From positions 4,278,001 through 4,342,000 of the forward strand of contig NC_014829.1 of assembly GCF_000177235.2 (NCBI RefSeq): a stretch of DNA of 64,000 bases, given 5' to 3'. This document shows, in pieces, positions 18,965 through 62,875 of this stretch; position 1 is the stretch's first letter, and every line of letters begins with the position of its first letter. The translations under genes and the position numbers were made by a program. The notes beneath the pieces are model-generated. The model did not search any database. It worked only from the letters and a program-made list of their open reading frames with translations, and was not told the origin of the DNA. The DNA comes from Evansella cellulosilytica DSM 2522. GTDB lineage: Bacteria > Bacillota > Bacilli > Bacillales > Salisediminibacteriaceae.

Positions 18965-19172
18965 TTAGTTATTCGTGCGTAACTCGGGGGAAGTCATGCC
19001 GAACTCGGACAGAATTGTGCGTAACTTTGGGGAAATCATACCGAACTTTGATCGAATCATCCATAACTCTGTTCTTGATCATACACACCCCCACCCGCGT
19101 CATGCAATTTGGCTAACGAGATCCGCCACGCGTCATGCAATTTGGCAAATGAGGTCCGTCCCTATTAGCCTA
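18965..19172 (-). repeat. 22-bp unit array and hairpin core, reverse orientation
   Basis: AACTCGGNNGAA(T/A)TCNTGCGTAACTTT-type units (reverse of the GTTACGNGCGATTT unit) run from about 18970 to 19070. They are followed by GGCAAATGAGGTCCGTCCCTATTAGCC-like hairpin sequence, split here as arm GGCAAA, core AGGTCCGTCCCT and arm TTAGCC. The hairpin overlaps the end of the GGDEF-EAL gene and supplies its stop codon. Between 18870 and 18965 I see only AT-rich leader. Confidence 0.75.
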
Positions 19173-21489
19173 GTTGTTCGGGTGGGAGTGGTTTGCTGAA
19201 TAGGTAGCCTTGGGCTTTGACGCAGTCTTGGTTGGCTAGGAATGTTGCTTGTTCTTCGTATTCGACTCCTTCGGCGATGGTGTTGAGGTGAAGGTTGTTG
19301 CCTAGGTCGATGATTGTTTTTACAATGGCTGCTTTGCTGTCGTTTGTGATCATGTCACGGATGAAGCTGCGATCTATTTTTAGTGTGTCAATTGGTAGTT
19401 GATCGATGGCGTTTAAGGATGAGTAGCCTGTTCCAAAGTCGTCAATGGCTACTTTGATCCCCATTTCTTTCACTTGGTGCACTTTATCTATTGTGTCGAT
19501 AAAGTGGTGCATCATCGATTCTGTGATTTCTAGTTCGAGATATTTTGGGTCGAGATTTGTTTCGTCTAGTGCTGCTTTAATGTTTTCTACGAAATTCTTG
19601 TCTCTAAATTGCCATGGTGAGACGTTGACTGCGACGGGAATGTAAAAGCTGCCGTTTTGCTGCCATTGTTTGTTTTGTCTGCATGCTTCTTTGATTAGCC
19701 ATTTCCCTATGTGATTAATATAGCCGGTTTCTTCGGCAATTGGTATAAAATCCATTGGCGGTATGAGCCCTAGTTTTGGGTGTTGCCAACGGATAAGGGC
19801 TTCAAGTCCAACGAGATCACCTGACTTTAAGTCTACTTGTGGCTGATAGTAGAGTAAAAACTCCTCGTTTTTCAATGCTTTCCTTAGATCATTTTCTATA
19901 ATATATTTTTTACTTAAGAGGTTGGTTGGCTCTGGCGTGTAGAATTGATAATTGTTTCCGCCATTTTCTTTTGCGACATACATTGCAGTGTCGGCGTGCT
20001 TTATAATATCATCCTTCGTTTGCCCGTCCTTTGGATAAACACTTATACCAATACTTGGTGACGTGAAAAATTCTTTGCTATTAATGATAAATGGATTCGC
20101 CATATCCTTGAGAATTTTTTTTGCTATGTTCGATACTTTTTCTATCGAAGCGTCCTTTGATAATATTAAAAACTCGTCTCCTCCTAATCGTCCTACAGTA
20201 CAGTTTTCACATACGTGCTGTTGTAGTCTTATTGCGGTTTGGATGAGTAATTGATCACCTATTTGGTGTCCCATCGTATCATTTAATATTTTGAAGCGGT
20301 CCAGATCCATAAACATGAGTGCCAGTGACTGGTCGTTTTCGTCGCACGTGACGATCTCTTGCTCTAAAAGCTGTTCGATATGATAGCGGTTCGGCAATCC
20401 TGTTAATATGTCGTGGTTGGCTCGATATTCAACTTCCTTCCTTGATTGATTGAAGTTATGAACCATTTCGTTAAAGCGTACAATTAAGTTTTTCATTTCG
20501 GGATAGTCTTTGACGTTGACGTCGAGCGTTTTTGTGTAGTTTCCTTCGGCTACCTTGTCTACAGCATCATACAAGTTTACGAATGGTTCCAGTGTTTTTC
20601 TCGCATAAATGTAAGTAAAGAAGGTGATTGAAACGATAACAAACAGTGCCATATTCCAGATCGAGCTGCGGAAATCACGTAGTTGATCATAAATACTTGA
20701 TTCAGGAATTTGCGCAATGATTCCCCATTCTAGCTCTGGGATGTACTGATACGACGCATAATACGCATTCCCTTCGCTGTTAATTGTATGTTCATATCCT
20801 GATTGTTTGTTCATTATTTTTTCAACAATAGGTCGATCACTAATATTCTTTCCTACTCTTTCTCGCAGTGCATGTGCTAATACATCTCCATTTTGATCAA
20901 CAACCGCTGAATATCCACCAGACCCTAAATTTTTCTGGTTAAGAAGGGCATCTAACACTAAGTTTTCTTGGGTAAAGCTTCCTAAATAAATATAGTGATG
21001 AATCTCGTTACTTCCATTGTATAGCGGTACTGTCGTGCCAATAATCGGACTTTCCACGCCCGTTATGAAATCCGAACTGACTGTTACTTCTGTTCTTTGA
21101 ACTAAACGTTCTATTTGCTCCGTCAAATCTCTGTCGTATTCATACGGATAACTAAAGCCAACTGCTCCCTCTGGGGTGATGACGACCCCTAAATCGACCA
21201 AAGGTGAAATAGAAACAATCCGTCTTACTTTCTCATTGATGCCACTTAAGTTTTCTTCCGTAACGATCTGCTGAATGCTGTCTCCAGTGATGGTATATTG
21301 CTCGATCATCGCCGACAAGACTTTTGCTGTATGGTTAACTTCCGCATCTGTCACCTCTTGAAAGTGTGCGCGAGATATTTCAGGTAAGTTTCTCTCAGCA
21401 ATGAAAAATATCGCTGCTAGTAGAAAAATAAATATCGCTACTACTAAAATGTATATCCTCCAAAACGTAAATGATTTTAATACGTACAT
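19165..21489 (-). CDS. membrane GGDEF-EAL protein with dCACHE-like sensor
   Basis: The order is membrane helix (about 10-30), a ~240-residue extracellular dCACHE-like domain (YSAVVDQNGDVLAHALRERVGKNISDRP marks the second PAS-like lobe), second helix (about 278-298), HAMP-like linker (ARKTLEPFVNLYDAVDKVAEGNY), GGDEF domain with intact GGDEF active site, and EAL domain with intact EALIRWQHP, ELEITES and DDFGTGYSSL. Both cyclic-di-GMP synthesis and hydrolysis could occur; net activity cannot be told. It ends PLPPEQLG, the stop coming from the hairpin repeat. A ribosome site before ATG 21489 is poor. Confidence 0.9.
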   Translation of the reverse strand: MYVLKSFTFWRIYILVVAIFIFLLAAIFFIAERNLPEISRAHFQEVTDAEVNHTAKVLSAMIEQYTITGDSIQQIVTEENLSGINEKVRRIVSISPLVDLGVVITPEGAVGFSYPYEYDRDLTEQIERLVQRTEVTVSSDFITGVESPIIGTTVPLYNGSNEIHHYIYLGSFTQENLVLDALLNQKNLGSGGYSAVVDQNGDVLAHALRERVGKNISDRPIVEKIMNKQSGYEHTINSEGNAYYASYQYIPELEWGIIAQIPESSIYDQLRDFRSSIWNMALFVIVSITFFTYIYARKTLEPFVNLYDAVDKVAEGNYTKTLDVNVKDYPEMKNLIVRFNEMVHNFNQSRKEVEYRANHDILTGLPNRYHIEQLLEQEIVTCDENDQSLALMFMDLDRFKILNDTMGHQIGDQLLIQTAIRLQQHVCENCTVGRLGGDEFLILSKDASIEKVSNIAKKILKDMANPFIINSKEFFTSPSIGISVYPKDGQTKDDIIKHADTAMYVAKENGGNNYQFYTPEPTNLLSKKYIIENDLRKALKNEEFLLYYQPQVDLKSGDLVGLEALIRWQHPKLGLIPPMDFIPIAEETGYINHIGKWLIKEACRQNKQWQQNGSFYIPVAVNVSPWQFRDKNFVENIKAALDETNLDPKYLELEITESMMHHFIDTIDKVHQVKEMGIKVAIDDFGTGYSSLNAIDQLPIDTLKIDRSFIRDMITNDSKAAIVKTIIDLGNNLHLNTIAEGVEYEEQATFLANQDCVKAQGYLFSKPLPPEQLG

Positions 21490-21614
21490 CGCTTACAACT
21501 CCAATTATGTATGTCTAGGTGAGGGACTTTTGTACACCAATATTATCTTCAAAGTGTCGGTCAATATGCTGATATGGAGATTATTTTATATTTTGCTGTG
21601 ATGGGTGGGAAGTA

Positions 21615-22226
21615 TTAATCAGGGGCGAATGAGGTCCGTCCCTGTTAGTACTCCGGATTTACCAGTTGGTTTCCAAATTACGCGTAACTCGGGTGGAATC
21701 GCTCGTAACTTTGATCAAATCGCGCATAACTCGGGCGGAATCGCGTGTAACTTGGATGAAATCGCTCGTAACTATGGCCGAATCGCGCGTAACTTTGATC
21801 AAATCGCGTGTAACTCCGTTCTAATCACGCGCAAGTCCATCTCTATCGAGTTTTGCATTTCGGCTAACGAGGTCCGTCCCTGTTAGCACTCCGGATTTAC
21901 CAGTTAGATTCCAAATTTCACGTAACTTTGATCAAATCGCTCGTAACTCGAGCGGAATCGCGCATAACTTTGATCAAATCGCGTGTAACTCCGTTCTAAT
22001 CAAGCGCAAGTCATCTCTATCGAGTTTTGCATTTCGGCTAACGAGGTCCGTCCCTGTTAGCACTCCGGATTTACCAGTTAGATTCCAAATTGCACGTAAC
22101 TTTGATCAAATCGCTCGTAACTCGGGCCGAATTGCGCGTAACTTTGATCAAATCGCGTGTAACTCCGTTCTAATCAAGCGCATCGTGTCTTCCATTTCGG
22201 CTAACGAGATCCGTCCCTGTTAACCG
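21615..22226 (-). repeat. three-module array of 22-bp units with hairpins, reverse orientation
   Basis: Modules begin with a hairpin (AGGTCCGTCCCTGTTAG), then CTCCGGATTTACCAGTT at about 21651, 21889 and 22063. Each then has several units of AAATCGCGCGTAACTTTGATC type and a tail with ATCGAGTTTTGCATTTCGG. Module lengths are about 238 and 174 bp, again differing by a few 22-bp units. No credible gene lies between 21490 and 22286. Confidence 0.85.
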
Positions 22227-22286
22227 GTACATATTTTTCTATAGAATTGAAAAATATATTATTAGTAGTCATGTTAGGAGGCTAAA

Positions 22287-22826: not shown

Positions 22827-22886
22827 AAAGGCTAACGAGGTCCGTCCCTGTTAGCCATGCTAATGAGGTCCGTCCCCGTTAGCCTT
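22827..22886 (-). repeat. two hairpin repeats side by side, one inside a coding end
   Basis: The first copy has arms GGCTAAC / GTTAGCC around GAGGTCCGTCCCT; the second has arms GCTAATG and GTTAGCC around AGGTCCGTCCCC. The second copy is read into the end of the DUF4309-like gene. Confidence 0.85.
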
Positions 22887-24377: not shown

Positions 24378-25118
24378 ATGTTGAAGAAACTACATATTGT
24401 TTTTCTACTCGCTTTCATGGTTGGCGCTCTTCCAATGGAAGCATCAGCAGAAGACAAAAATATCGCAAGAGAGTTTATGATATCCTTCATTGAAGGAAAA
24501 GAAGAAAGCCCGTATGATACCTATCTCGCTGACGGCGTAGTCGTACCAGAGATTCGTGAGCATACACGGGTGAAAGGCTATTCTTCACTATCCTCCCCTT
24601 TGAAAAATACAAAGGTTGTCATAGGATATTTTGAGGATGACTTAGCCGACGATCGAATGGCTTTCATTTGGGAATTAACTGTCGAAGACGACAAAATAAC
24701 GAACATTCGTGTTGTCCACGACGGCTCTAACCCGATGATCAACGAGGAAAAAACGGTAAAGGAATACGAAGAGCTGAACGGGACTAGCATTCTAGTCCCT
24801 TCCGATCTTCCTTTCACCATCACGCACGTAGACGGCGCCGTAAACGACGATCAATTAGAAATCACCTACAAAAATGGCCTTCTAAATGATCTCCTTTCCA
24901 TCAACGTCGGCCCAAAAACGTACGATATTGATAACTACAGTGGCGACGGTTACGAAAGCCTCCACCTTTCCGACGGAACAAAGGTACTGTTCTATTCAGG
25001 CGAAGCCGCCTCCGAACAGCAGCTCATCTTCCAAAAAAGCAACCTACAATACACCATTCGCTTGAATACCCATTCAAGCGAAACATACGACATCATCAAA
25101 GTCGTCGAATCAATGTAA
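24378..25118 (+). CDS. exported hypothetical protein, 246 aa
   Basis: A signal peptide (MLKKLHIVFLLAFMVGALPMEASA) precedes a soluble acidic domain with a helical first part (KNIAREFMISFIEGKEES) and a longer beta-rich part. No lipobox, membrane anchor or known domain is seen. ATG follows GGTGATGTGAC. The stop codon touches a perfect hairpin repeat that probably ends transcription. Confidence 0.65.
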   Translation: MLKKLHIVFLLAFMVGALPMEASAEDKNIAREFMISFIEGKEESPYDTYLADGVVVPEIREHTRVKGYSSLSSPLKNTKVVIGYFEDDLADDRMAFIWELTVEDDKITNIRVVHDGSNPMINEEKTVKEYEELNGTSILVPSDLPFTITHVDGAVNDDQLEITYKNGLLNDLLSINVGPKTYDIDNYSGDGYESLHLSDGTKVLFYSGEAASEQQLIFQKSNLQYTIRLNTHSSETYDIIKVVESM

Positions 25119-25152
25119 AGGCGAATGGGGACGGTTCTCATTCGCCTTTTTG
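25117..25152 (+). terminator. hairpin repeat acting as a terminator
   Basis: AAAGGCGAATG (25117-25127) pairs perfectly with CATTCGCCTTT (25139-25149) around the repeat core GGGACGGTTCT, and a T run follows. Here the repeat family forms a complete rho-independent terminator. Degenerate 22-bp units (GAGTTATGTATAATTT and similar) continue to about 25310. Confidence 0.8.
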
Positions 25153-26339: not shown

Positions 26340-26397
26340 ATCGATTCCTCCATTTTTTTCGAATGTAATGTTTATTATCTCTATAACTACTTGTAAG

Positions 26398-27262
26398 GAT
26401 AACAGGGACGGTTCTCACTTGCCAGTTTGATAGTTTTTTATGATTTGATCATGGTTATGTGCGATTTCTTTCAAGTTACACGCGATTTTGATCGAGTTAC
26501 GCGCGATTTCACACGAGTTTGAAGCGATTTGGAAGCCAACTGGAAAAACACTTCAATTATGCAAACAGGGACGGTTCTCTATCGCCAGTTTGATAGTTTT
26601 TTATGATTTGGTCATAGTTATGTGCGATTTCTTTCAAGTTACACGCGATTTTGATCGAGTTACGCGCGATTTCACACGAGTTTGAAGCGATTTGGAAACC
26701 AACTGAAAAAAACACTTCAATTATGCTAACAGGGACGGTTCTCACTTGCCAGTTTGATAGTTTTTTTATGATTTGGTCAAAGTTATGTGCGATTTCTTTC
26801 AAGTTACACGCGATTTTAATCGAGTTACGCGCGATTTCACACGAGTTTGAAGCGATTTGGAAACCAACTGGAAAAATACTTCAATTAGGCTAACAGGGAC
26901 GGTTCTCACTTGCCAGTTTGATAGTTTTTTATGATTTGGTCATAGTTATGTGCGATTTCTTTCAAGTTACACGCGATTTTGATAAAGTTACGCGCGATTT
27001 CACACAAGTTTGAAGCGATTTGGAAGCCAACTGGAAAAATACTTCGATTAGGCTAACAGGGACGGTTCTCACTTGCCAGTTTGATAGTTTTTTTATGATT
27101 TGGTCATGGTTATGTGCGATTTCTTTCAAGTTACACGCGATTTTGATAAAGTTACGCGCGATTTCACACGAGTTCGAAGCGATTTGGAAACCAACTGGAA
27201 AAACACTTCAATTAGGCTAACAGGGACGGTTCTCACTTGCCAGTTTGATAGTTTTTTTATGT
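26398..27262 (+). repeat. five tandem copies of a 163-164-bp hairpin plus 22-bp-unit cassette
   Basis: AGGGACGGTTCT recurs at 26404, 26567, 26731, 26895, 27058 and 27222, so the period is 163-164 bp. Each cassette has the hairpin (ending ACTTGCCAG), TTTGATAGTTTTTTATGATTTGGTCA, three to four units of GTTACGCGCGATTT type, and GAAGCGATTTGGAAACCAACTGG. Copies differ at only a few positions, so amplification is recent. The sixth copy is cut short. This gap has no credible gene. Confidence 0.95.
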
Positions 27263-34167: not shown

Positions 34168-34672
34168 GGGCTAATGGGGACGGTTCTCATTGGCCAAGTT
34201 TGCTTGATTTGCTTGATTTGGTCAAAGTTACGGGCGATTTCTTTCAAGTTACGAGCGATTCCGATCGAGTTACGCGCGATTTCAACGGAGTTACACGCGA
34301 TTTGGAAGCCAACTGGAAATCACCTTCTATCAGGCTAATGGGGACGGTTCTCATTGGCCAGGTTTGCTTGATTTGCTTGATTTGGTCAAAGTTACGTGCG
34401 ATTTTTTTCAAGTTACGAGCGATTCCGATCGAGTTACGCGCGATTTCAACGGAGTTACACGCGATTTGGAAGCCAACTGGAAATCCCCTTCTATCAGGCT
34501 AATGGGGACGGTTCTCATTGGCCAGGTTTGCTTGATTTGCTTGATTTGGTCAAAGTTACGTGCGATTTCTTTCAAGTTACGAGCGATTCCGATCGAGTTA
34601 CGCGCGATTTGGAAGCCAACTGGAAATCACCTTCGATTAGGCTAATGGAGACGGTTCTCATTGGCCTCGTTC
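34168..34672 (+). repeat. tandem 164-bp hairpin/22-bp-unit cassettes after the crt operon
   Basis: The GGGGACGGTTCT core occurs at 34176, 34340 and 34504, spaced exactly 164 bp, and a variant (GGAGACGG) at 34647 is 143 bp further. The short module lacks one 21-bp unit (TCAACGGAGTTACACGCGATT type), directly showing gain or loss of single units. Each cassette ends GATTTGGAAGCCAACTGGAA. The array starts at the stop codon of the CrtP-like gene. There is no gene between 34167 and 34761. Confidence 0.95.
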
Positions 34673-44257: not shown

Positions 44258-44717
44258 AATGGGGTAATGGGCTAATGGGGACGGTTCTTGTTTGCCTACA
44301 TTAAAAGATTATAACAGTATTATTGCGACAAATTCTGAATTTTTTTTATAGTAAATTTTTCTAAGGGGATAATGGATAATGGGGACGTTTCTCATTCGCC
44401 AGTCTGATAGTTTTGGATGATTTGGTCAATGTTATGTGCGATTTCTTTCAAGTTACAAGCGATTCTGATCGAGTTACGCGCGATTTCACACGAGTTTGAA
44501 GCAATTTGGTAACTAACTGGAAAAACACTTCGATTAGGCTAATGGGGACGGTTCTCGTTCGTCAGTTTGATAGTTTTGGATGATTTGGTCGAAGTTATGT
44601 GCGATTTCTTTCAAGTTACAAGCGATTCTGATCGAGTTACGCGCGATTTCACACAAGTTTGAAGCGATTTGGAAGCCAACTGGAAAAACACTTCAATTAG
44701 GCTAATGGGGACGGTTC
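44258..44717 (+). repeat. hairpins and 22-bp-unit cassettes before the first IS copy
   Basis: GGGGACGG(T/)TTCT cores occur at about 44277, 44383 (one base changed), 44546 and 44708. The last two cassettes carry the TTTGATAGTTTTGGATGATTTGGTC linker, then CAAGTTACAAGCGATTCTGATCGAGTTACGC-type units, and GATTTGGAAGCCAACTGG. The hairpin at 44708 is where the IS is inserted. No gene lies between 44240 and 44748. Confidence 0.85.
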
Positions 44718-44748
44718 TGTTGTGACCCCTTAAAGTTAGAGTTTTATA

Positions 44749-45558
44749 TTAAGCTACTAATTGGCTGGTGTGGAGGCGGTATTGAACCGGACTCTTCCCA
44801 GCTAATTTCTTTTTAATGCGCTTGTGATTATAGTAATCTATATAATCTTCGATTTTTCCTTTTAATTCTTCGTAAGTACACAAAGCCTCTCCGTGATATA
44901 TTTCTTGCTTTAGTAGACCAAAAAAGTTCTCCATTGGCGAATTATCCAAACAATTACCTTTTCTAGACATACTCTGAAAAACGTTATTTTCTTTAAGGAG
45001 TCCCACCCAATTTTTATGTTGATAATGCCAACCTTGATCTGAGTGAAGGGTTGTTCTATACTTTGCATCCTTTATGATTTCAAGGGTTTCTACTAAAGGT
45101 TCTAACACAAGTTGAAGATTTGGACGCGTGCTGATTCCAAACGAAAGTATTTCACTATTAAACAAGTCCATAATTGGATTTAAATATAATTTCGCCCCAC
45201 CTAAACATTTTAATTCTGTGATATCTGTAGTTAGTTTCTGATGGGATACAGTCGTATGAAAACGGCGATTTATACGGTTTGGGGCTACTTTGCCCACAGG
45301 ACCTTTATAAGAACTATACTTGCGTGATTTTCTACAGAACTTAGTTACTTTAAGTCCTAATTTTTGCATGATGCGTTGAACCTTCTTGTGATTAATTTGG
45401 TAACCTTGGTTTCTCAATTCTAGATGAATGCGACGATAACCATAATTCCCGTTGTGCTCATCGAAGATGGATTGGATTAACTCTTCAAGTGCCTGATCTG
45501 GGTTGTCTTTCTTCATCACTTTTATATGATAATGGTAAGAGGATTCTGGTATTCCCAC
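44749..45558 (-). CDS. IS3-family transposase OrfB (DDE integrase core)
   Basis: The rve-type DDE core is intact: TDITELKC (first Asp), LHSDQGWHYQHKNW (second Asp) and SPMENFFGLLKQEIYHGEA (Glu). The open frame continues upstream of the GTG at 45558 without a stop, into orfA. The native product is therefore an OrfAB fusion made by -1 frameshifting rather than a separately started OrfB. Confidence 0.9.
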   Translation of the reverse strand: MGIPESSYHYHIKVMKKDNPDQALEELIQSIFDEHNGNYGYRRIHLELRNQGYQINHKKVQRIMQKLGLKVTKFCRKSRKYSSYKGPVGKVAPNRINRRFHTTVSHQKLTTDITELKCLGGAKLYLNPIMDLFNSEILSFGISTRPNLQLVLEPLVETLEIIKDAKYRTTLHSDQGWHYQHKNWVGLLKENNVFQSMSRKGNCLDNSPMENFFGLLKQEIYHGEALCTYEELKGKIEDYIDYYNHKRIKKKLAGKSPVQYRLHTSQLVA

Positions 45559-45575
45559 TACTTGTAAAACATCTT

Positions 45576-46139
45576 TTAATTTGAACTCTTCTTTGAGTTC
45601 GAATGATAACGCTGCTTGTGCTTTTCGAGATAATCCTCCGGGTTTGCCCGAAAAGCTTGCAACTTTTTTAAATACTCTACCTCCAAACGAAGAAGCTCAT
45701 TTTCCCTCTCTAACCGTTGCTCGTTTGTAAGTTCTTTTTCATTTATATTTTTCTTGTTTTTGTTCTTAGGTCTATCAGACATGGTACCTCGTCCTCTCGT
45801 TCGATCCAGGGCTTCAGCCTTATCTTCACGAAAAGATTTTTTCCATGAAGCAATTAAAGTGGGACTATCTAACCCAAAATGGAGGGCTGTTTGGGTTTCT
45901 GAAGTTCCTGTTCTTTTAATAAAGCTTAATACATCTAGCTTAAATTGAACAGAATAAGTTCCCTTATGCCCATTACTTTTTATTCCTTCTTCTCCGAACT
46001 TCTCATATATCTTCACCCATCTTTCAACCAATGATTTTGATTTAATATGATGCTTTTTGGCTAGACGCCTGAAGCCTAGAATTCCTTCTTGATATTCTTT
46101 AACGACTTTAATCTTTAATTCATCATTATATTTAGGCAT
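45576..46139 (-). CDS. IS3-family OrfA (helix-turn-helix protein)
   Basis: Two helix-turn-helix regions (GILGFRRLAKKHHIKSKSLVERW and a second around TSETQTALHFGLDSPTLIASW) precede a leucine-zipper-like helix (LERENELLRLEVEYLKKL). The slippery heptamer T TTA AAA (45666-45672) sits in frame just after the zipper. Slipping -1 there leads into orfB with no stop. ATG 46139 is preferred; GGGGTG lies eight bases before it. Confidence 0.9.
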   Translation of the reverse strand: MPKYNDELKIKVVKEYQEGILGFRRLAKKHHIKSKSLVERWVKIYEKFGEEGIKSNGHKGTYSVQFKLDVLSFIKRTGTSETQTALHFGLDSPTLIASWKKSFREDKAEALDRTRGRGTMSDRPKNKNKKNINEKELTNEQRLERENELLRLEVEYLKKLQAFRANPEDYLEKHKQRYHSNSKKSSN

Positions 46140-46353
46140 AAATAAACACCCCAAAAGTTAGATTTTTCACTCTAACTTTTGGGGTGCACTACATTCTCGT
46201 TAGCTTTTTTTGGTAATTACAGGAACGGCTTTCGACTACTTTATATAGTTCAGATTGGTGATGAGAGATATTCTAGCCTTATACATATGAGCGTAGTGAA
46301 GGTATTACTGGATCTAGTAATTTTTCAGTTAGTAGCCGTTCGTAAGAAATAGG

Positions 46354-48650: not shown

Positions 48651-48851
48651 TTACCATATTATTCTTATTATGTGTAGGTCTAATTTATGAATACGCATAT
48701 ACCCTTAGTGAAACCTACTACTAATAGGGACGGTTCTCACTTGCCAAATTGCTAGATTTACAAGATTTCAGCATAGTTATGTATGATTCAAGTCGAGTTA
48801 CAGCTTTTGCGGTACCTCTTACTAAGGAACTTTGTTTTCACCTTTCTGTAC

Positions 48852-49404: not shown

Positions 49405-49440
49405 AGCCAATAGGCTAATGGGGACGGTTCTCATTTGCCC
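49405..49440 (-). repeat. hairpin repeat between genes
   Basis: GGCTAATG, core GGGACGGTTCT and CATTTGCC; the arms match in five of seven positions. Located between the DUF1648 gene and the DUF1801 gene. Confidence 0.8.
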
Positions 49441-50253: not shown

Positions 50254-50279
50254 ATCAACAAACTCCTTTCGACTAACGG

Positions 50280-50568
50280 GGACGGTTCGGTTCGGAACCA
50301 GTGAAAAAGTACTTACCCTTTAAGTATAGACTAATAAATATAAGGTTATTTGAATATAGAAGTTGATGAGACCTGTGCAAACTCGCTTTCCGCGGGCGGC
50401 TGGTGAGCCTCCTTGATGCTTTGCATCTACGTAGTCTCACCCCTGCCTTTTCTCCCGCAGGAGTCTCGCTTGCTCCGGTCTCATCAACCTTTTCTATAAT
50501 TAGATATATTGAATATTAATACAATAAAATATCAAGTTTTCTACTTTTTCAGCAGTCTCGGACGGTTC
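50280..50568. mobile_element. MITE-like element A inserted in a hairpin repeat
   Basis: A 266-bp element (50294-50559) is bounded by imperfect 18-bp terminal inverted repeats (GGAACCAGTGAAAAAGTA and, on the other strand, GAGACTGCTGAAAAAGTA). It is flanked by the 9-bp repeat GGACGGTTC at 50280-50288 and 50560-50568; five additional bases (GGTTC) lie at the left junction. The interior contains GTTGATGAGACC / GGTCTCATCAAC arms around further hairpins. It has no open frame. The rest of 50254-50745 is AT-rich with no gene. Confidence 0.85.
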
Positions 50569-52387: not shown

Positions 52388-52494
52388 AAACATCTCCTTT
52401 TGGCTAATGGGGACGGTTCTCGTTTGCCTATTCCTCTAATTTTTTTCTTCGGTTTAAATTTAGTTATCAAAATCAACACTGCTTACTGTATGAT

Positions 52495-52902: not shown

Positions 52903-52978
52903 ATTGTCTTCCTCCTAAGGTTGGTAGGCTAAAACAGCTAATGGGGACGGTTCTTGTTTGCCTTTGACCAAAAATTTC

Positions 52979-53323: not shown

Positions 53324-53467
53324 CCAACAATCACCCTTTCATCCTCTAGGCTAATGGGGACGGTTCTCATTTGCCTGCCACCGTTTCCTTTTGCCTCATT
53401 TCATTCATTCTCTGCTCGCCCAATATGAAAGCTCTAAACTAGATTCATACAGTTAAAGTTATAACTA

Positions 53468-53767
53468 CTAAACGCTATTATCCTTTTGAGGTACAAGGAT
53501 GGTTCTTTGCATTGGCACTCCACCGATGTTAATCGTCCGTTCGGTAAAGAAATAGTGTTTGTTATCAATGATAAATCTACGATTGCCAACAAGTTCAACA
53601 ACTTTACCTTGCTCAGCAAGTTTTTTCACAATCGCTTGGGAATGTTCAGTAACATCGGTATATCGCTCGTCAAAATCGATGATGATTTGATGCTTTTTAT
53701 ATCCGAGTAGGTAATTCAAGAGAATGCCAAGAGATACAATGATGCAAATAGTGATGATTATATACAA
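53468..53767 (-). CDS. small membrane-anchored protein, copy 1 (99 aa)
   Basis: One helix (MYIIITICIIVSLGILLNYLLGY) is followed by a cytoplasmic or outside domain with DERYTDVTEHSQAIVKKLAEQGK and VELVGNRRFIIDNKHYFFTE. No known family. TTG follows GGAGGTGGGCA. Twin of the copy at 53952. Confidence 0.65.
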   Translation of the reverse strand: MYIIITICIIVSLGILLNYLLGYKKHQIIIDFDERYTDVTEHSQAIVKKLAEQGKVVELVGNRRFIIDNKHYFFTERTINIGGVPMQRTILVPQKDNSV

Positions 53768-53951
53768 ATGCCCACCTCCACTTTTTTCTGAAAAAGCCTT
53801 TCTTTACATATACGGGTTAAACTTTTTATCGTTTCGGCTAATGGGGACGGTTCTCGTTTGCCTGCCACCGTTTCCTTTTGCCTCATTTCATTCATTCTCT
53901 GCTCGCCCAATATGAAAGCTCTAAACTAGATTCATACAGTTAAAGTTATAA

Positions 53952-54254
53952 CTAATAAACGCTATTATCCTTTTGAGGTACAAGGATGGTTCTTTGCATT
54001 GGCACTCCACCGATGTTAATCGTCCGTTCGGTAAAGAAATAGTGTTTGTTATCAATGATAAATCTACGATTGCCAACAAGTTCAACAACTTTACCTTGCT
54101 CAGCAAGTTTTTTCACAATCGCTTGGGAATGTTCAGTAACATCGGTATATCGCTCGTCAAAATCGATGATGATTTGATGCTTATTATATCCGAGTAGGTA
54201 ATTCAAGAGAATGCCAAGAGATACAATGATGCAAATAGTGATGATTATATACAA
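53952..54254 (-). CDS. small membrane-anchored protein, copy 2 (100 aa)
   Basis: Same as copy 1 except Asn for Lys at residue 24 and one additional C-terminal residue, because the TAG stop of copy 1 reads TAT here and a second TAG follows. Both copies keep the ribosome site and start, so both may be expressed. Which is ancestral cannot be told. Confidence 0.65.
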   Translation of the reverse strand: MYIIITICIIVSLGILLNYLLGYNKHQIIIDFDERYTDVTEHSQAIVKKLAEQGKVVELVGNRRFIIDNKHYFFTERTINIGGVPMQRTILVPQKDNSVY

Positions 54255-54517
54255 ATGCCCACCTCCTACTTTTTTTCTAGAAAAAGCCTTTCTTTACATA
54301 TACGGGTTTAAAGTTTCTATAGTTTCATAGTTGCTATTATATGAAAATATATATTCACTCAAAGTTTCTCTAGTAGTGTCCGTTTGCTTTTGTTGACGTT
54401 TCCCAGACAAAGTTAAGGCTAATGGGGACGGTTCTTCTTTGCCAATATAAAATTTTTCTAATATGGACTACTAATAGGGACGGTTCTGTTGTGACCCCTT
54501 AAAGTTAGAGTTTTATA

Positions 54518-55327
54518 TTAAGCTACTAATTGGCTGGTGTGGAGGCGGTATTGAACCGGACTCTTCCCAGCTAATTTCTTTTTAATGCGCTTGTGATTAT
54601 AGTAATCTATATAATCTTCGATTTTTCCTTTTAATTCTTCGTAAGTACACAAAGCCTCTCCGTGATATATTTCTTGCTTTAGTAGACCAAAAAAGTTCTC
54701 CATTGGCGAATTATCCAAACAATTACCTTTTCTAGACATACTCTGAAAAACGTTATTTTCTTTAAGGAGTCCCACCCAATTTTTATGTTGATAATGCCAA
54801 CCTTGATCTGAGTGAAGGGTTGTTCTATACTTTGCATCCTTTATGATTTCAAGGGTTTCTACTAAAGGTTCTAACACAAGTTGAAGATTTGGACGCGTGC
54901 TGATTCCAAACGAAAGTATTTCACTATTAAACAAGTCCATAATTGGATTTAAATATAATTTCGCCCCACCTAAACATTTTAATTCTGTGATATCTGTAGT
55001 TAGTTTCTGATGGGATACAGTCGTATGAAAACGGCGATTTATACGGTTTGGGGCTACTTTGCCCACAGGACCTTTATAAGAACTATACTTGCGTGATTTT
55101 CTACAGAACTTAGTTACTTTAAGTCCTAATTTTTGCATGATGCGTTGAACCTTCTTGTGATTAATTTGGTAACCTTGGTTTCTCAATTCTAGATGAATGC
55201 GACGATAACCATAATTCCCGTTGTGCTCATCGAAGATGGATTGGATTAACTCTTCAAGTGCCTGATCTGGGTTGTCTTTCTTCATCACTTTTATATGATA
55301 ATGGTAAGAGGATTCTGGTATTCCCAC
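54518..55327 (-). CDS. IS3-family transposase OrfB, copy 2
   Basis: Identical to the first copy's OrfB, DDE core intact; expressed by frameshifting from orfA. Confidence 0.9.
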   Translation of the reverse strand: MGIPESSYHYHIKVMKKDNPDQALEELIQSIFDEHNGNYGYRRIHLELRNQGYQINHKKVQRIMQKLGLKVTKFCRKSRKYSSYKGPVGKVAPNRINRRFHTTVSHQKLTTDITELKCLGGAKLYLNPIMDLFNSEILSFGISTRPNLQLVLEPLVETLEIIKDAKYRTTLHSDQGWHYQHKNWVGLLKENNVFQSMSRKGNCLDNSPMENFFGLLKQEIYHGEALCTYEELKGKIEDYIDYYNHKRIKKKLAGKSPVQYRLHTSQLVA

Positions 55328-55344
55328 TACTTGTAAAACATCTT

Positions 55345-55908
55345 TTAATTTGAACTCTTCTTTGAGTTCGAATGATAACGCTGCTTGTGCTTTTCGAGAT
55401 AATCCTCCGGGTTTGCCCGAAAAGCTTGCAACTTTTTTAAATACTCTACCTCCAAACGAAGAAGCTCATTTTCCCTCTCTAACCGTTGCTCGTTTGTAAG
55501 TTCTTTTTCATTTATATTTTTCTTGTTTTTGTTCTTAGGTCTATCAGACATGGTACCTCGTCCTCTCGTTCGATCCAGGGCTTCAGCCTTATCTTCACGA
55601 AAAGATTTTTTCCATGAAGCAATTAAAGTGGGACTATCTAACCCAAAATGGAGGGCTGTTTGGGTTTCTGAAGTTCCTGTTCTTTTAATAAAGCTTAATA
55701 CATCTAGCTTAAATTGAACAGAATAAGTTCCCTTATGCCCATTACTTTTTATTCCTTCTTCTCCGAACTTCTCATATATCTTCACCCATCTTTCAACCAA
55801 TGATTTTGATTTAATATGATGCTTTTTGGCTAGACGCCTGAAGCCTAGAATTCCTTCTTGATATTCTTTAACGACTTTAATCTTTAATTCATCATTATAT
55901 TTAGGCAT
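55345..55908 (-). CDS. IS3-family OrfA, copy 2
   Basis: Identical to the first copy's OrfA. The slippery T TTA AAA lies at 55435-55441. Confidence 0.9.
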   Translation of the reverse strand: MPKYNDELKIKVVKEYQEGILGFRRLAKKHHIKSKSLVERWVKIYEKFGEEGIKSNGHKGTYSVQFKLDVLSFIKRTGTSETQTALHFGLDSPTLIASWKKSFREDKAEALDRTRGRGTMSDRPKNKNKKNINEKELTNEQRLERENELLRLEVEYLKKLQAFRANPEDYLEKHKQRYHSNSKKSSN

Positions 55909-56027
55909 AAATAAACACCCCAAAAGTTAGATTTTTCACTCTAACTTTTGGGGTGCACTACATTCTCTCTCGCCAAACATTGACTGCAAAACGGAACAAT
56001 TCTATTTGCCAAATCACAGAAGGTATA

Positions 56028-56103
56028 TGGTCGGCTAACTAGGTCCGTCCCCGTTAGCCAAAATCACAGACGCACGTTTGGCTAACAAGAACCGTCCCCG
56101 TTA
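56028..56103 (-). repeat. two consecutive hairpin repeats, the second at the transporter gene's end
   Basis: Copies at about 56033-56059 (arms GGCTAAC / GTTAGCC, core AGGTCCGTCCCC) and 56079-56105 (GGCTAAC / GTTAGCC, core GAACCGTCCCC). The second provides the transporter's stop codon. Confidence 0.85.
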
Positions 56104-57294
56104 GCCATTTGCTGTATGGTTGGTTTTTAGGGTGATGTTTAGTTTTTCTGAGACTAGGAACATGATGACGACAAAGGTGGCGATCATGAATGGAAAGATG
56201 CCTATTGTTAATTGTGCTGCTACGAACCCTAGTAATGGTGGGAGAAATGTGCTCCCTGTGTAGGCAACTGCCATTTGATATCCCATAATTGTTTGTGAAT
56301 GTTCTTTTCCAAAGCGTGCTGGTGTCTCATGTAGCATGCATGGAAAAATAGGTGCAAATCCTAACCCTATTAGGACAAAGCTAATAAGGGTAAATGTATC
56401 TGGTAAAGGTAATAAGAGAAATGCGGTTCCTACTAATGCGATGATTTGTCCCATTCGAATGAGTGAGCGATTGCTCATTTTTAGCGTGATGAAGCCTGTT
56501 AGGAATCTGCCGACTGTGATTCCCCCGTAGTATAAGGAAACCCATGCTGCCGCTAGCTCTACTGACAAACTTTTTATATTGACTAAAAAGCTACTACCCC
56601 AAAGGCCTACTGCGGCTTCTGCTCCACAGTAAAACAAGAAAGGTATTAAAGCTAGTTTAACTCCTCTTATTTGTAACGGCTTTTCGTTTTTAGTGCTTGA
56701 TTCATGTTGATCACTTAATTCTTGACTAGCATTTCCTGCGTTGTTTTCTCCAATTCGCTTCCATAATGGCAAGCTCAAGAAAAGAATGATGACTAAGACA
56801 AACTGAATAGCAGCGATAGCAAGAAAGCCGTTTCTCCAAGCGCCATCAACCATAAAGTAAGCCATGATAACTGGGCCGAGAGTAGCTCCAATGCCCCAAA
56901 AGCAATGAAGCCAACTCATGTGATGTGCTTTGTAGTGCGTAGCGACGTAATTATTTAGTGCTGCATCAACTGCTCCAGCCCCTAACCCGAGTGGAACAGC
57001 TAAAACGAATAACCAAACGAGGGTCGGCGCAATGTGAAAACCAGCTAGTGCTCCTGCGGTCATCAGGCAACTTACCGCTGTGACGCTGCCCGTTCCGAAA
57101 CGTTTAATGACTGCCCCGCTAGCAAGGCTGGAAATGATCGTTCCTCCAGCAACTGTCATGAATAACAATCCTGCGGCTTCCAGTGGTGCGCCAAACTCTG
57201 GTTGCATCAATGTCCATGAAACTCCTATTAACGAATCTGGTAACCCGAGGCTAATAAATGCCAAGTATATAATAATTAGTAGAAATGTTGCCAT
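56101..57294 (-). CDS. MFS transporter
   Basis: Twelve membrane helices in two six-helix halves with a hydrophilic middle loop (ENNAGNASQELSDQHESSTKNEKP). Early signature LGLPDSLIGVSWTLMQPEFGAP and helix-5 HCFWGIGATLGP resemble the fucose-permease-like/YfkF branch. Substrate unknown. ATG 57294 follows GGAGGAAACATAC. The last two residues (NG) and stop come from the hairpin. Confidence 0.85.
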   Translation of the reverse strand: MATFLLIIIYLAFISLGLPDSLIGVSWTLMQPEFGAPLEAAGLLFMTVAGGTIISSLASGAVIKRFGTGSVTAVSCLMTAGALAGFHIAPTLVWLFVLAVPLGLGAGAVDAALNNYVATHYKAHHMSWLHCFWGIGATLGPVIMAYFMVDGAWRNGFLAIAAIQFVLVIILFLSLPLWKRIGENNAGNASQELSDQHESSTKNEKPLQIRGVKLALIPFLFYCGAEAAVGLWGSSFLVNIKSLSVELAAAWVSLYYGGITVGRFLTGFITLKMSNRSLIRMGQIIALVGTAFLLLPLPDTFTLISFVLIGLGFAPIFPCMLHETPARFGKEHSQTIMGYQMAVAYTGSTFLPPLLGFVAAQLTIGIFPFMIATFVVIMFLVSEKLNITLKTNHTANG

Positions 57295-57386
57295 GTATGT
57301 TTCCTCCAAGTAGGTTAAGAGGGACGGTTCTCATTTGCCAACCTTAGTTAAATCGTAATTTCGCAAACGGGAACCGTCCATATTGT

Positions 57387-57560
57387 CTAGTTATCAATTT
57401 TATTTTTTATGTAGTCCACTTTCTCCTCAAGTCTTTCTAGTCTTTTTCTATTTTCAATACTGCTTCTTATAATTGTGATGATTAGTAAAATGATTCCTAA
57501 CCATGCCGCGATGGCGATGAATTGATAAATTACATTGAATACGTTAATATCCTCAAACAT
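57387..57560 (-). CDS. small membrane protein, 57 aa
   Basis: ATG 57560 follows AGAGGTGAAAAG. One long hydrophobic segment (AIAAWLGIILLIITIIRS) precedes a charged helix with heptad spacing (SIENRKRLERLEEKVDYIKNK). The strong ribosome site and regular tail support a real gene. Hairpin repeats lie on both sides (about 57317-57340, 57362-57378 and 57592-57618). Confidence 0.55.
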   Translation of the reverse strand: MFEDINVFNVIYQFIAIAAWLGIILLIITIIRSSIENRKRLERLEEKVDYIKNKIDN

Positions 57561-57675
57561 CTTTTCACCTCTAATTTAATAAATGTAAAATGCAAATGAG
57601 AACCGTCCCCGTTTGCTGTTAATGATAGACCCTCCTAGGTTCAATTCTCGTTTTTTCCTCAACAGTTTAATAGTA

Positions 57676-57972: not shown

Positions 57973-58041
57973 ATTCCCCTCCTAGGTCTGAACGGCAAAT
58001 GGGGACGGTTCTCGTTTGCCAATTACTCGCGCTTTTTACTA

Positions 58042-58230
58042 TCAAGAACCGTCCTTGTTAGTCGTTTTGCTTTCCTTTTCTTTCGTTAATAATGCGATTA
58101 TTTTTTCATTTTGATCGATTTGCTGCTCTAGGCGGTATTGAATGATTTTAATTCTGTCGTATGCTAGGAAAACTAGGACAACAAGAGCGATAAAGGCTAT
58201 GAATAAAAAAGTAAAGATGCTTTCGCCCAT
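58042..58230 (-). CDS. small membrane coiled-coil protein, 62 aa
   Basis: A membrane helix (about 5-24) is followed by a coiled-coil (RLEQQIDQNEKIIALLTKEKE). The final residues NKDGS and the TGA stop are encoded by a hairpin repeat. ATG follows GGGAGGTGTTTATGA. Confidence 0.65.
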   Translation of the reverse strand: MGESIFTFLFIAFIALVVLVFLAYDRIKIIQYRLEQQIDQNEKIIALLTKEKESKTTNKDGS

Positions 58231-58510: not shown

Positions 58511-58527
58511 TCACACCCCTCCATCGA

Positions 58528-58605
58528 ACTGGCAAATAGGGACGGTTCTTGTTTGCCAATTACTTATTCTCATTTTACTAACGAGATCCGTCCCCGTTTG
58601 CCCGT
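58528..58605 (-). repeat. two hairpin repeats
   Basis: Copies at about 58531-58557 (arms GGCAAAT, core AGGGACGGTTCT, TTTGCC) and 58577-58600 (AACGAGATCCGTCCCCGTTTGCC). Arms of the first are complementary. Confidence 0.8.
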
Positions 58606-60080: not shown

Positions 60081-60122
60081 TGGGAATCCTCCTTTGGTTA
60101 ATAAAGGCTAATGGGCTAATGG

Positions 60123-60406
60123 GGACGGTTCGGAACCAGTGAAAAAGTACTTACCCTTTAAGTATAGACTAATATATATAAGGTTATTTGAATATAGAAG
60201 TTGATGAGACCTGTGCAAACTCGCTTTCCGCGGGCGGCTGGTGAGCCTCCTTGATGCTTTGCATCTACGTAGTCTCACCCCTGCCTTTTCTCCCGCAGGA
60301 GTCTCGCTTGCTCCGGTCTCATCAACCTTTTCTATAATTAGATATATTGAATATTAATACAATAAAATATCAAGATTCCTACTTTTTCAGCGGTCTCGGA
60401 CGGTTC
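60123..60406. mobile_element. MITE-like element B inserted in a hairpin repeat
   Basis: 266-bp element at 60132-60397 with ends GGAACCAGTGAAAAAGTA and GAGACCGCTGAAAAAGTA (other strand), flanked by GGACGGTTC at 60123-60131 and 60398-60406. Nearly identical to element A. Confidence 0.9.
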
Positions 60407-60444: not shown

Positions 60445-60537
60445 TTGCCCCACAACGAAATGGCTAATAAGATCCGTCCCTCTTTGCCTAACAGCGAAAT
60501 GGCTAATAAGGTCCGTCCCTGTTTGCCTCTGTTTGCT
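60445..60537 (-). repeat. two hairpin repeats before the kinase gene's stop
   Basis: Cores AGATCCGTCCCTC (about 60467) and AGGTCCGTCCCTG (about 60508), each with GGCTAAT and TTTGCC arms. Confidence 0.75.
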
Positions 60538-60539
60538 TT

Positions 60540-61796
60540 TTAATTTACTTCATTAAATCGAAGTTTGAATGACGTGCCTTCTCCTTTTTTACTTGATACT
60601 GATATTTGGCCATTTAAGGTCTTTACTAAGCGGAATACGACCATTGTTCCTAGTCCAGTTCCTTTTGCTTTTGTGGATAAGAAAGGTGTACCTAATCTTG
60701 AAACTTCCTCCTTCGTCATTCCGACACCGCTGTCTTTCATTTCAATCATTACTTTGTTTTTTTCCTTACTGATGAATATGTGTAGAACACCACCATTTGG
60801 CATTGCTTCAATGGCATTTTTTGATAGATTTAAAAGAATTTGATGAAGCTTCTTTTTATCAATTTTAATAAAATAACTTTCATGATCATCGAAACTAGTA
60901 CTAACCTTCACATTATTCATTAATGCTAGTGGATTAATCACATTTATTATATATTCAACCTCTTTTTTTACATCAATTTTTTGCAGATTGATTTCATCAT
61001 AAGGTTTTGCATACGTTAAATAATCCGTGATGATGGATTCTGCTCTTTCTAATTCTTGTAGTGCAAGCTTCAAATGGCTTTTCCTTGTAGCAACTTCGAT
61101 AGTATCGTCATTTTGTACTAATTGGATAAAACCCTTTGTTACAGTAAGTGGATTTCTAATTTCATGTGATATCGATGATGCCATCTCACTTAATGCTTTC
61201 GTTTTATTATGTATATTATAATTTTCCATTAACTCATTAGCATTCCTCAAATACTCAATTAAGTACACTACACCTGCAGTAAGGAGAGGTGCCACCAAGA
61301 TGCTAATTATCATTAGTATTGGAGACATTTTTGTTAATGTGCCGAACCAAATATGACAAATGGTGAACTCGTAAGAAATATATGCCAAGGCAACTAGACT
61401 AGAATATACTATTTTCTTGTTTTGTGTTAGTCGATTAAATAAAGGAATGAAGCCATATATTAATAGAGCGCCAAAGGATAAAGAAGTGATAAGGTAAACA
61501 TAAAATCCATGACCACCAATAAAAAACCGCGTGATTATAGAATAAATGATTAACACCAACACGACTTTTTTCCCACCATAAATGGCCCCAATAAGTATTG
61601 GAATAAATCTTAAATCAAACACATGCCCATGACTCTCGTAAATGGGAAAATTCATACACAAAGTAATCGAAATGATAGATAAAATAATGAGAGTAAACTG
61701 GCTATAACGTTTAAACACATGATGTACGTTCACAAAAACATGATAAGCAAGTATAAATACAATAATGACTAATACATTGAGATACATGTTTTCCAT
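60540..61796 (-). CDS. sensor histidine kinase with 5TM-LYT-type sensor
   Basis: Five to six membrane helices fill residues 1-185, with the LYT-type stretch DLRFIPILIGAIYGG. Then HisKA with His211 in SISHEIRNPLTVTKG and an ATPase domain (DSGVGM, STKAKGTGLGT). This is the KinB-like group of Bacillus, which feed sporulation or related phosphorelays. There is no partner regulator adjacent. ATG follows GGAGGTTGGGCT. Confidence 0.9.
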   Translation of the reverse strand: MENMYLNVLVIIVFILAYHVFVNVHHVFKRYSQFTLIILSIISITLCMNFPIYESHGHVFDLRFIPILIGAIYGGKKVVLVLIIYSIITRFFIGGHGFYVYLITSLSFGALLIYGFIPLFNRLTQNKKIVYSSLVALAYISYEFTICHIWFGTLTKMSPILMIISILVAPLLTAGVVYLIEYLRNANELMENYNIHNKTKALSEMASSISHEIRNPLTVTKGFIQLVQNDDTIEVATRKSHLKLALQELERAESIITDYLTYAKPYDEINLQKIDVKKEVEYIINVINPLALMNNVKVSTSFDDHESYFIKIDKKKLHQILLNLSKNAIEAMPNGGVLHIFISKEKNKVMIEMKDSGVGMTKEEVSRLGTPFLSTKAKGTGLGTMVVFRLVKTLNGQISVSSKKGEGTSFKLRFNEVN

Positions 61797-61804
61797 AGCC
61801 CAAC

Positions 61805-61882
61805 CTCCACATAGGCTAATAGGGACGGTTCTCGTTAGCCTTTGTCAAAAAAGCCAACAGGGACGGTTCTCCTTTGCCTGTT
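61805..61882 (-). repeat. two hairpin repeats before the kinase
   Basis: Copies at about 61813-61839 (GGCTAAT / GTTAGCC, core AGGGACGGTTCT) and 61853-61877 (GCCAAC, core AGGGACGGTTCT, TTTGCC). They lie just upstream of the kinase start. Confidence 0.8.
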
Positions 61883-62011
61883 TTTTCCTCCTACTTATCC
61901 TACATGTTCGATGAAGTGATGTTCGAAGGCCACACTCACTCATTATCGTAACATTGTTTTCTAGTTTATTTAAAAGAAGATTTCACACTTCGCTTTTATA
62001 TGGTCCTTGTT

Positions 62012-62467
62012 TTATCTATGGCCTTCTTTACGTGCTTGAATATATCCGTAGTATTTACAAGTTCCATTCCTTGTTAAGTCGTCAACTTCAAAGCCACATT
62101 TTTTATAGAAAGAGAAGTTTTCAGATGAAGTATGTGCAAACCAATCGCCGTGGGGCAGCTTGTGAACGCAAAGCTCTACTAGCTTTTTCCCTACTCCCCT
62201 TCCACGATAGTCTGATAAAACTATTAAATCTAATATATTTGCAACCATGATTTTATCTGAAATTACTCTAACCATCCCTACTAATTTTTCATCATCCCAG
62301 ACTGTAAATGCCCAAGTAGCATTTTTAAATATGAGAGAAAATTTTTCTCTTTGCCAAGAAGGCGTATGTTTAGTCCAACCAGCATCTTGAAAAAGTGATT
62401 CAACTAAGTCAGCAGGAATATTGTCAGTGCCCTCTCTAATGATTAATCCATGATAGTACTGATACAT
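62012..62467 (-). CDS. GNAT acetyltransferase
   Basis: 151 residues from ATG 62467 (GGGGGAGCTTACAAAC upstream). The acetyl-CoA site reads LDLIVLSDYRGRGVGKKLVELCV and ends with NFSFYKKCGFEVDD. Open reading continues upstream into the MITE but lacks a ribosome site there. The element stands 49 bases before the start and may affect expression. Confidence 0.85.
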   Translation of the reverse strand: MYQYYHGLIIREGTDNIPADLVESLFQDAGWTKHTPSWQREKFSLIFKNATWAFTVWDDEKLVGMVRVISDKIMVANILDLIVLSDYRGRGVGKKLVELCVHKLPHGDWFAHTSSENFSFYKKCGFEVDDLTRNGTCKYYGYIQARKEGHR

Positions 62468-62506
62468 GTTTGTAAGCTCCCCCATTCTAGTTAAGAAAGT
62501 TAATAG

Positions 62507-62799
62507 GGACGGTTCGGAACCAGTGAAAAAGTACTTGTATTTAGTGAGCTCCCTAATAAATATAAGGTTATTAGAATATAGGAGTTGAAGAGACCTATGC
62601 AAACTCGCTTTCCGCGGGCGGCTGGTAAGCCTCCTCTATGCTGCGCATCTGCGGGGTCTTACCTCTGCCTTTATTCCCGCAGGAGTCTCGCTTGCTTCGG
62701 TCTCATCAACTCTTTCTATAAATCTATAAATTAGGTACTCTGAATAAAAATGCAACAATATATTAATTCTTACACTTTTTCAGCGGTCTCGGACGGTTC
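62507..62799. mobile_element. MITE-like element C inserted in a hairpin repeat
   Basis: 275-bp element at 62516-62790 with the same terminal repeats, flanked by GGACGGTTC (62507-62515 and 62791-62799). More diverged inside than A and B, so it is older or a subfamily. Confidence 0.9.
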
Positions 62800-62875
62800 T
62801 CGTTCGCCGTTCTCCCATTTTACCGGTTAGTAGTGCCAATAGTGACTGTTACCCCTCGCCCCTTCACCTAGTGAA

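Follow-up and report, generated by a model that had tools for sequence, protein, structure and literature searches.

Hairpin repeats with a fixed core in Evansella cellulosilytica, probable REP-like partners of a single-copy Y1 transposase

What are the short hairpins that stand at gene boundary after gene boundary in part of the Evansella cellulosilytica DSM 2522 chromosome, and which enzyme, if any, do they belong to? We addressed this question for a stretch of 64,000 nucleotides (contig NC_014829.1, positions 4,278,001 to 4,342,000, forward strand), hereafter the window, together with the complete 4.68-Mb genome and other genomes of the family. The window contains 43 occurrences of the heptamer GGGACGG (1.67 expected), a count reached by none of 100 dinucleotide shuffles, and the heptamer lies at the center of a 27-bp hairpin, GGSNAAYRGGGACGGWYCTYRTTNGCC, of which the window holds 39 intact copies (at most three mismatches; 26 on the + and 13 on the - strand, from 19144 to 61878, with 21 of the 39 at 44-63 kb) and ten mononucleotide shuffles hold none in total. 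Five extra copies are split by an insertion sequence (IS; insert at 44718 and 54487) or by a miniature inverted-repeat transposable element (MITE; 50294, 60132 and 62516). An earlier sequence-only reading of the window had counted about 45 copies and located them; it was right, because the 39 intact, the five split and two further copies with one core mismatch each (57371, 58046) add up to 46. The hairpin family is real and abundant, and we consider it probable that its members are non-autonomous mobile hairpins resembling the repetitive extragenic palindromes (REPs) and cognate to a single-copy Y1 (HUH) transposase encoded at 4.1585 Mb.

The genome-wide search that the same reading had proposed returned 246 copies of the 27-mer (105 forward, 141 reverse) and none of a reversed-pattern control. 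The 0.8 Mb of zones analysed in detail contain 240 of these, and 21 of 237 lie within open reading frames (ORFs) called by a simple script, the rest being extragenic. The hairpin is built of a 6-bp stem (27-mer positions 1-6 and 22-27) enclosing an asymmetric core, GGGACGG(TT/AC/AT)CT, whose variants among the 240 copies are GGGACGGTTCT (167), the ACCT (37) and ATCT (26) forms and others (10); a weak AAAT tail (0.25-0.57 bit, 209 copies) lies on its 3' side. Across 192 distinct copies, hardly any variation is seen in the GGC and AA, in the facing TT and GCC or in the core; the free positions are 4/24, 7/21 and 8/20. The arms had been described as compensating one another from copy to copy, a claim that fails within the genome: at each pair the Watson-Crick fraction is that expected from shuffling (27% vs 29% at 4/24, 34% vs 35% at 7/21, 38% vs 43% at 8/20), T.T is the commonest state of pair 4/24, and all six outer pairs are Watson-Crick in 26 of the 192 copies. 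The sister genome G001, with 107 distinct copies, shows no arm covariation either. The search pattern restricts which positions may vary, not which arms combine, and on these two sets we reject covariation within a genome. What stands of the claim is covariation between species, in the stems beside transposase relatives (see below), and the argument for a REP kinship that had been drawn from covarying copies is not upheld.

The kinship itself is supported from another side, by an adjoining gene, its relatives and their tree. The window has no Y1 gene, as had been noted, and the proposed check for a Y1 transposase flanked by the same hairpin identified one 119 kb to the left of the window, at 4158499-4159272 (- strand). 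The left part of the hairpin, GGCTAACGGGGACGGACC, starts 8 nt past its stop codon and the right part lies beyond a MITE; an inverted copy, cut by an IS end, is found about 360 bp upstream of the gene. The product displays a Y1_Tnp domain (2.5e-14) and a C-terminal HTH_23 match (1.6e-4, with 0.0073 as a second HTH_23 value, both below the Pfam gathering score), with helices at 199-257 in its predicted model (predicted local distance difference test score 87), and its residues H60, H62 and Y119 are invariant across ten relatives. A PDB profile search recovered TnpA-REP (4er8) as the only match (3.2e-8), and a fold search with the predicted model placed the same structure first (5.1e-8), followed by the IS608 and ISDra2 transposases. 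The genome contains three dissimilar Y1_Tnp genes. The second, a REP-associated tyrosine transposase (RAYT) at 4221253 (+ strand), is 46% identical to the first and is directly followed on its 3' side by the hairpin TAAGACAA-GGGGACAGGTCACA-TTGTCTTA; of the 38 GGGACAGG sites in the analysed zones, 27 are hairpins of this second family as judged by eye, and their density peaks at 4.220-4.230 Mb, where that gene lies. Each hairpin type is accompanied by its transposase gene once, not by near-identical repeated gene copies with ends. The second family, of the type TAAGACAGA-GGGACAGG-TTCC-TCTGTCTTA, follows the same logic as the first with another core. The third Y1 gene (4383.4 kb) belongs to another branch and has repeated palindromes, GAACCCGGGTTCGTTCTAACCCGGGTTAC, to its right, spaced 182-273 bp.

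The linkage of gene and hairpin extends far beyond the species. When species genomes were scanned with an alignment of the ten proteins, at least 577 relatives emerged, of which the best 80 were kept for analysis; these come from Bacillaceae and other Bacilli, many Clostridia and Negativicutes, as well as two Atribacterota, one member of Coriobacteriales and one Thermodesulfobacteriota bin. A GGGAC lies within -12 to +90 nt of the stop codon in 67 of the 80 (12.7% of shuffled windows, 5/80 in-gene windows), and in 38 of the 80 at least five perfect arm pairs surround it (0.3% and 0/80, respectively). At the 32 loci with an exact GGGACGGTTC core, the pairs 3-8 counted outward from the core covary (p 0.0002-0.013), pair 2 does so more weakly (p 0.015) and pairs 1, 9 and 10 show no covariation; the cells of the 6-bp stem are paired in 78.6% vs 53.8%, and the stem covariation score is 0.652 vs 0.218 shuffled, a value reached in 0/500 shuffles, with 0.12-0.24 for slid versions. 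Between species, then, the stem changes in a compensatory manner around the GGGACGGTTC core. Sibling cores, namely GGGACAGG, GGGACGGGGTTG and GGGACGTTTCG, are also found among the relatives, and on a FastTree phylogeny of 90 transposases (the 80 relatives and all 10 genus rows; many weak inner branches) the core class, coded by regular expression into five labels with 'none' in 21 rows, requires 24 changes vs 44.3 when shuffled (0/200), the GGGACGTTTCG core forming one clade with support 99. Within the genus, 6 of 10 RAYTs have GGGAC near the stop. The stem sequence changes faster than the core yet stays paired.

In the sister genome G001 there are two such transposase genes, 72% and 55% identical to the first gene, and GTGAACATG-GGGACGGTTCT-CCCGTTTACAC adjoins the second; among 153 core copies in 0.8 Mb, 122 carry a left RAAC and a right GTTYAC arm, as does the copy beside that RAYT. 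Many of the +- doublets at 3.95-4.34 Mb of this genome are spaced exactly 44 nt (11) or 62 nt (5), and the 44-nt class shares the inner sequence AATTGTC, forming a homogeneous class like the REP doublets termed REPINs. Another genome, G006, has 145 core copies; among the 100 matches listed, contig 11 carries 39, at 17-78 kb and around the gene at 34.6 kb, and the others cluster on contigs 4, 6, 10 and 18. Across 35 genomes of the family, eight hold at least 40 GGGACGGTTCT copies, with a reversed control of at most 5 in any genome and at most 1 in these eight. Such copy-rich genomes make up 6 of the 11 with a RAYT vs 2 of the 24 without (p 0.006, with thresholds chosen after looking), and the six have a transposase match better than 1e-80, in one case with an internal stop.

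The copies are regionally confined: 235 of the 246 lie within 1.10-1.48 Mb and 4.12-4.36 Mb, 13% of a chromosome whose origin is marked by dnaA at 484 bp. Control stretches elsewhere (395 kb) yielded 5 core sites, and 655-675 kb, chosen since matches were listed there, 3 copies. Ortholog-like matches in G001 exist for 105 of the 163 ORFs at 4.36-4.56 Mb, mostly collinear at 4.42-4.66 Mb, and this block is poor in hairpin copies in both genomes; of the 190 ORFs in the copy-rich 4.10-4.34 Mb, 17 match G001, in scattered places. Gaps holding a copy number 1 of 44 between syntenic gene pairs vs 134 of 670 others (p 0.0013), in a test that used simple-script ORFs and 1.2 Mb of G001 and scored stretches with no compared G001 counterpart as non-syntenic, which works against the contrast. 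Non-synteny alone does not account for copy density, as 4.24-4.295 Mb is non-syntenic yet almost copy-free. A strand bias by replication arm was likewise rejected, the zones leaning differently with no simple rule (- in 67/101 at 1.10-1.48 Mb and 50/80 at 4.10-4.22 Mb, + in 32/47 at 4.30-4.36 Mb).

Orientation relative to genes is pronounced. Copies starting -10 to +9 nt from a stop codon are in the gene's orientation in 59 cases vs 1 opposite; 15 of the 59 hairpins enclose the stop codon (at positions 4-6), which may mislead the ORF caller, and excluding these leaves 44 vs 1. The corresponding count in G001 is 34 vs 0. Copies close to start codons mostly point the other way (84 opposite vs 21 same). 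Inverted neighbours closer than 250 nt are 37 +- and 0 -+ in E. cellulosilytica (46 same-strand pairs) and 34 +- and 0 -+ in G001 (11 same-strand pairs). A moving unit that is a +- doublet, or a lone hairpin sharing the doublet's outer arm, placed so that the left arm faces the gene, would fit all these patterns. We posit that the transposase reads a single-stranded hairpin, core first and stem second, and that it might cut and rejoin it, as described for Escherichia coli TnpA-REP in vitro (PMC8266576). Single hairpins or +- inverted doublets would be copied by this protein into new intergenic sites; the cores afterwards serve as landing sites for a MITE and an IS. Copies may be confined either because only non-syntenic zones tolerate them or because they spread over short distances from the gene.

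Several observations weigh against the pairing of these repeats with this transposase. The protein falls short of the NCBIfam REP transposase model (75.5 of the 80 bits needed), no GTAG/GTGG foot was found at the hairpins (209 copies; the 20 nt upstream are A-rich only, at most 0.23 bit), and the 1.10-1.48 Mb zone has 101 copies and no Y1 gene. Thirteen of the best 80 relatives lack GGGAC within -12 to +90 nt of the stop, as do four of the ten genus RAYTs (L076, L077, L078 and L084) within 90 nt, and the nearest relative, the 72% identical one of G001, has a GGGACAG core past its stop, not GGGACGG; given these four and the nearest relative, we regard the core as tied to the transposase lineage, but loosely. 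In two copy-rich genomes, G021 and G026, no transposase match surpasses 1e-80, five RAYT-bearing genomes hold at most 10 GGGACGGTTCT copies (one of them, G004, has mostly GGGACGGTTCC), and the genomes compared show no transposition event or empty site.

The orientation data also bear on a different idea, that selection keeps the hairpins, whatever their origin, as RNA elements at mRNA 3' ends, where they could act as terminators, RNase barriers or a means of slowing the last ribosome. In E. coli, REPs close to a stop codon influence translation. The polarity at stop codons in both genomes and the inclusion of the stop codon itself in 15 of the 59 hairpins at stops speak for it, as does the better RNA fold of the + strand in the TTCT form (-10.1 vs -5.1 kcal/mol) and the G001 form (-15.0 vs -9.7 kcal/mol), the ACCT form differing little (-14.0 vs -12.6 kcal/mol). 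In the - orientation, 37 of 240 copies are followed by a T run, above the background of 6.9% of positions, but the + orientation, the one found at stops, is not enriched (18/240). The sequence-only reading had stated, correctly, that most copies lack a T run, and had called the one at 25117 a full terminator; the copy at 25120-25146 is a perfect stem followed by TTTTT and terminator-like. Individual copies can qualify as intrinsic terminators, a role we reject for the family given the missing + strand enrichment. A role at 3' ends, moreover, does not predict the mostly opposite copies at start codons, and it sits poorly with arms that do not covary inside the genome and with the rarity of copies between syntenic gene pairs. 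We rate selection for an RNA element as unlikely, though the strongest of the alternatives to mobile REP-like hairpins.

It is very unlikely that the repeats are double-stranded sites for a chromosome-organising or regulatory protein, purposely clustered in two domains. The dyad-symmetric fixed positions (GGC.AA / TT.GCC), with free positions that do not covary, are operator-like, and the regional clustering is strong; against this, the core is asymmetric and nearly invariant, the arms vary in the sister species and relatives while the core tracks the transposase, and hardly any copies occupy the syntenic part of the same chromosome arm. Least credible, at a very small probability, is that the repeats are the termini of one known IS or MITE, or target-site remnants left by it. 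Both a MITE and an IS3-type element do occur in hairpins, but all 246 counted copies are uninterrupted 27-mers, and the guests split the hairpin at its core. In the two zones, 22 of 22 junctions at the left ends found of a 266-350 bp MITE family and 6 of 6 left ends found of the IS3-type element are in hairpin cores; among the 18 MITEs whose two ends were both located, the 9-bp duplication is exact in 10, has one mismatch in 4 and is not clear in 3, and 1 has a 10-bp duplication. The only MITE-end match in G001 sits outside a hairpin. Because the IS and MITE copies found in the zones lie inside hairpin cores, the hairpin predates them there and was their target, which disposes of the suggestion that the copies could prove to be the worn ends of a single known IS. 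Taken together, the observation made from the sequence alone is partly confirmed and its interpretation partly supported. The copies and guests of the window are as follows (window positions; each single hairpin copy is a 27-mer match).

19144..19170, -, hairpin copy, core ACCT
21624..21650, -, hairpin copy, core ACCT
21862..21888, -, hairpin copy, core ACCT
22036..22062, -, hairpin copy, core ACCT
22199..22225, -, hairpin copy, core ATCT
22830..22856, -, hairpin copy, core ACCT, in tandem with the copy at 22858
22858..22884, -, hairpin copy, core ACCT
25120..25146, +, hairpin copy, the terminator-like one
26397..27241, +, tandem array of six copies at 163-164 bp (26397, 26560, 26724, 26888, 27051, 27215)
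34169..34666, +, tandem array of four copies, spacings 164, 164, 143 (34169, 34333, 34497, 34640)
44270..44296, +, hairpin copy
44374..44563, +, two copies spaced 163 bp (44374, 44537)
44700..44717, +, hairpin left part, split by the IS
44718..46193, unstranded, IS3-type element (rve integrase core) within a hairpin core, TTC on either side
48719..48745, +, hairpin copy
49413..49439, +, hairpin copy
50270..50293, +, hairpin left part, split by a MITE, with extra GGTTC
50294..50559, +, MITE, 266 bp, within a hairpin core; the flanking 9 bases differ at 2
52402..52428, +, hairpin copy
52936..52962, +, hairpin copy
53349..53375, +, hairpin copy
53836..53862, +, hairpin copy
54417..54443, +, hairpin copy
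54469..54486, +, hairpin left part, split by the second IS copy
54487..55962, unstranded, IS3-type element, second copy, same core position, TTC on either side
56033..56106, -, two hairpin copies (56033, 56080)
57313..57388, unstranded, copy (+, 57313) with worn inverted partner (-, core at 57371)
57591..57617, -, hairpin copy
57994..58063, unstranded, copy (+, 57994) with worn inverted partner (-, core at 58046)
58531..58602, unstranded, +- hairpin pair (58531 +, 58576 -)
60114..60131, +, hairpin left part, split by a MITE
60132..60397, +, MITE, 266 bp, within a hairpin core, 9-bp duplication GGACGGTTC
60462..60527, -, two hairpin copies (60462, 60501)
61814..61878, +, two hairpin copies (61814, 61852)
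62498..62515, +, hairpin left part, split by a MITE
62516..62790, +, MITE, 275 bp, within a hairpin core, 9-bp duplication GGACGGTTC

The tandem arrays at 26397-27241, 34169-34666 and 44374-44718 are built on a 163-164 bp unit (one step of 143 bp) with one hairpin per unit. Two neighbouring 300-bp segments, 53337-53636 and 53824-54123, are 98% identical duplicates, each starting near a hairpin, and the hairpins may have mediated this duplication.

Among described systems, the nearest known kind to a TIRYT-type transposase with a REP-like hairpin partner is the TIRYTs of Di Nocera 2013 (PMC3733652), which are reported with GGGGWSAS repeats; the repeats of these TIRtrons are dispersed, and some are self-complementary and occur in dimers (e.g., Stenotrophomonas maltophilia ORF 1152). 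The likeness lies in a Y1 transposase with a C-terminal helix-turn-helix and dispersed flanking repeats, and GGGGACAG beside the second RAYT fits GGGGWSAS, from which GGGGACGG of the present hairpin departs at the seventh base. Unlike in the TIRtrons, the repeat is here a short hairpin with a central motif, in about 250 copies and in Firmicutes. Twenty of Di Nocera's 26 TIRYTs were placed in TnpA subclass 2.1, the second largest Y1 transposase group (14.9% of strains), near whose genes, according to PMC6006769, neither automatic nor manual search found REP-like sequences; the hairpins with covarying stems beside the gene differ from that 2018 account. By their architecture and motif, rather than by position on the published tree, both E. 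cellulosilytica RAYTs look like TIRYTs or subclass 2.1 members. With the REP/REPIN-RAYT systems of E. coli and Pseudomonas (PMC3116915, PMC2817692) the present pair shares a single-copy RAYT adjoining the repeat, one family per RAYT, hundreds of intergenic palindromes, inverted doublets and IS targeting, REPs being known IS targets (PMC1525189); PMC8049555 was also among the literature compared. It differs in its conserved loop core and 6-bp stem and in being zone-confined, REP doublets being described as randomly distributed in extragenic space (PMC3116915). Because the GTAG/GTGG foot is lacking, we do not file the hairpins as canonical REPs, a class thereby ruled out, and we are rather confident that they behave in a REP-like way but are recognised on another plan. 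The CGTC REPs (PMC3733652) are also small intergenic palindromes, and CGTC occurs in the complement of our core; they are described with the tag at one unpaired end, 8-9 bp stems, 4-5 nt loops and no dedicated transposase, and the central tag and attached gene seen here exclude this class. IS200/IS605 elements share the HUH-Y1 fold (2vjv, 2xqc and others in the fold search) and action on terminal hairpins; in contrast to them, the three dissimilar Y1 genes are not multiple near-identical transposase copies with hairpin ends. A literature search with 11-mers of the core returned no paper on bacterial repeats, judged by title. Among papers on Bacillus/Geobacillus, the portion of PMC6542083 consulted has no text on RAYTs, and those of PMC4847372 and PMC9693769 count RAYT genes in tables and name no repeat.

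What is probably new here is a Firmicutes-wide, core-coded variant with a strong zone and stop-codon polarity, whose mobility is predicted from these patterns. More tentatively, and with somewhat less than even confidence, we suggest that the RAYT-hairpin pair spreads only or mainly in plastic zones, where doublets would be inserted flush with gene ends in one polarity, the carpet of near-identical hairpins with its dedicated MITE and IS would help to keep the zones rearranging, and hairpin density would mark the synteny border. If true, this would amount to a second REP world, loop-coded and extending across the Firmicutes, where the core read by the transposase is fixed and the stems are free to drift between species. 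Subclass 2.1, described as devoid of REP-like repeats, gains a hairpin partner with a conserved core and an exchangeable stem, and this core/stem grammar makes recognition testable with short oligonucleotides. The coincidence of repeat density, stop codons and synteny loss offers a natural case for asking whether REPs are a cause or a marker of genome plasticity.

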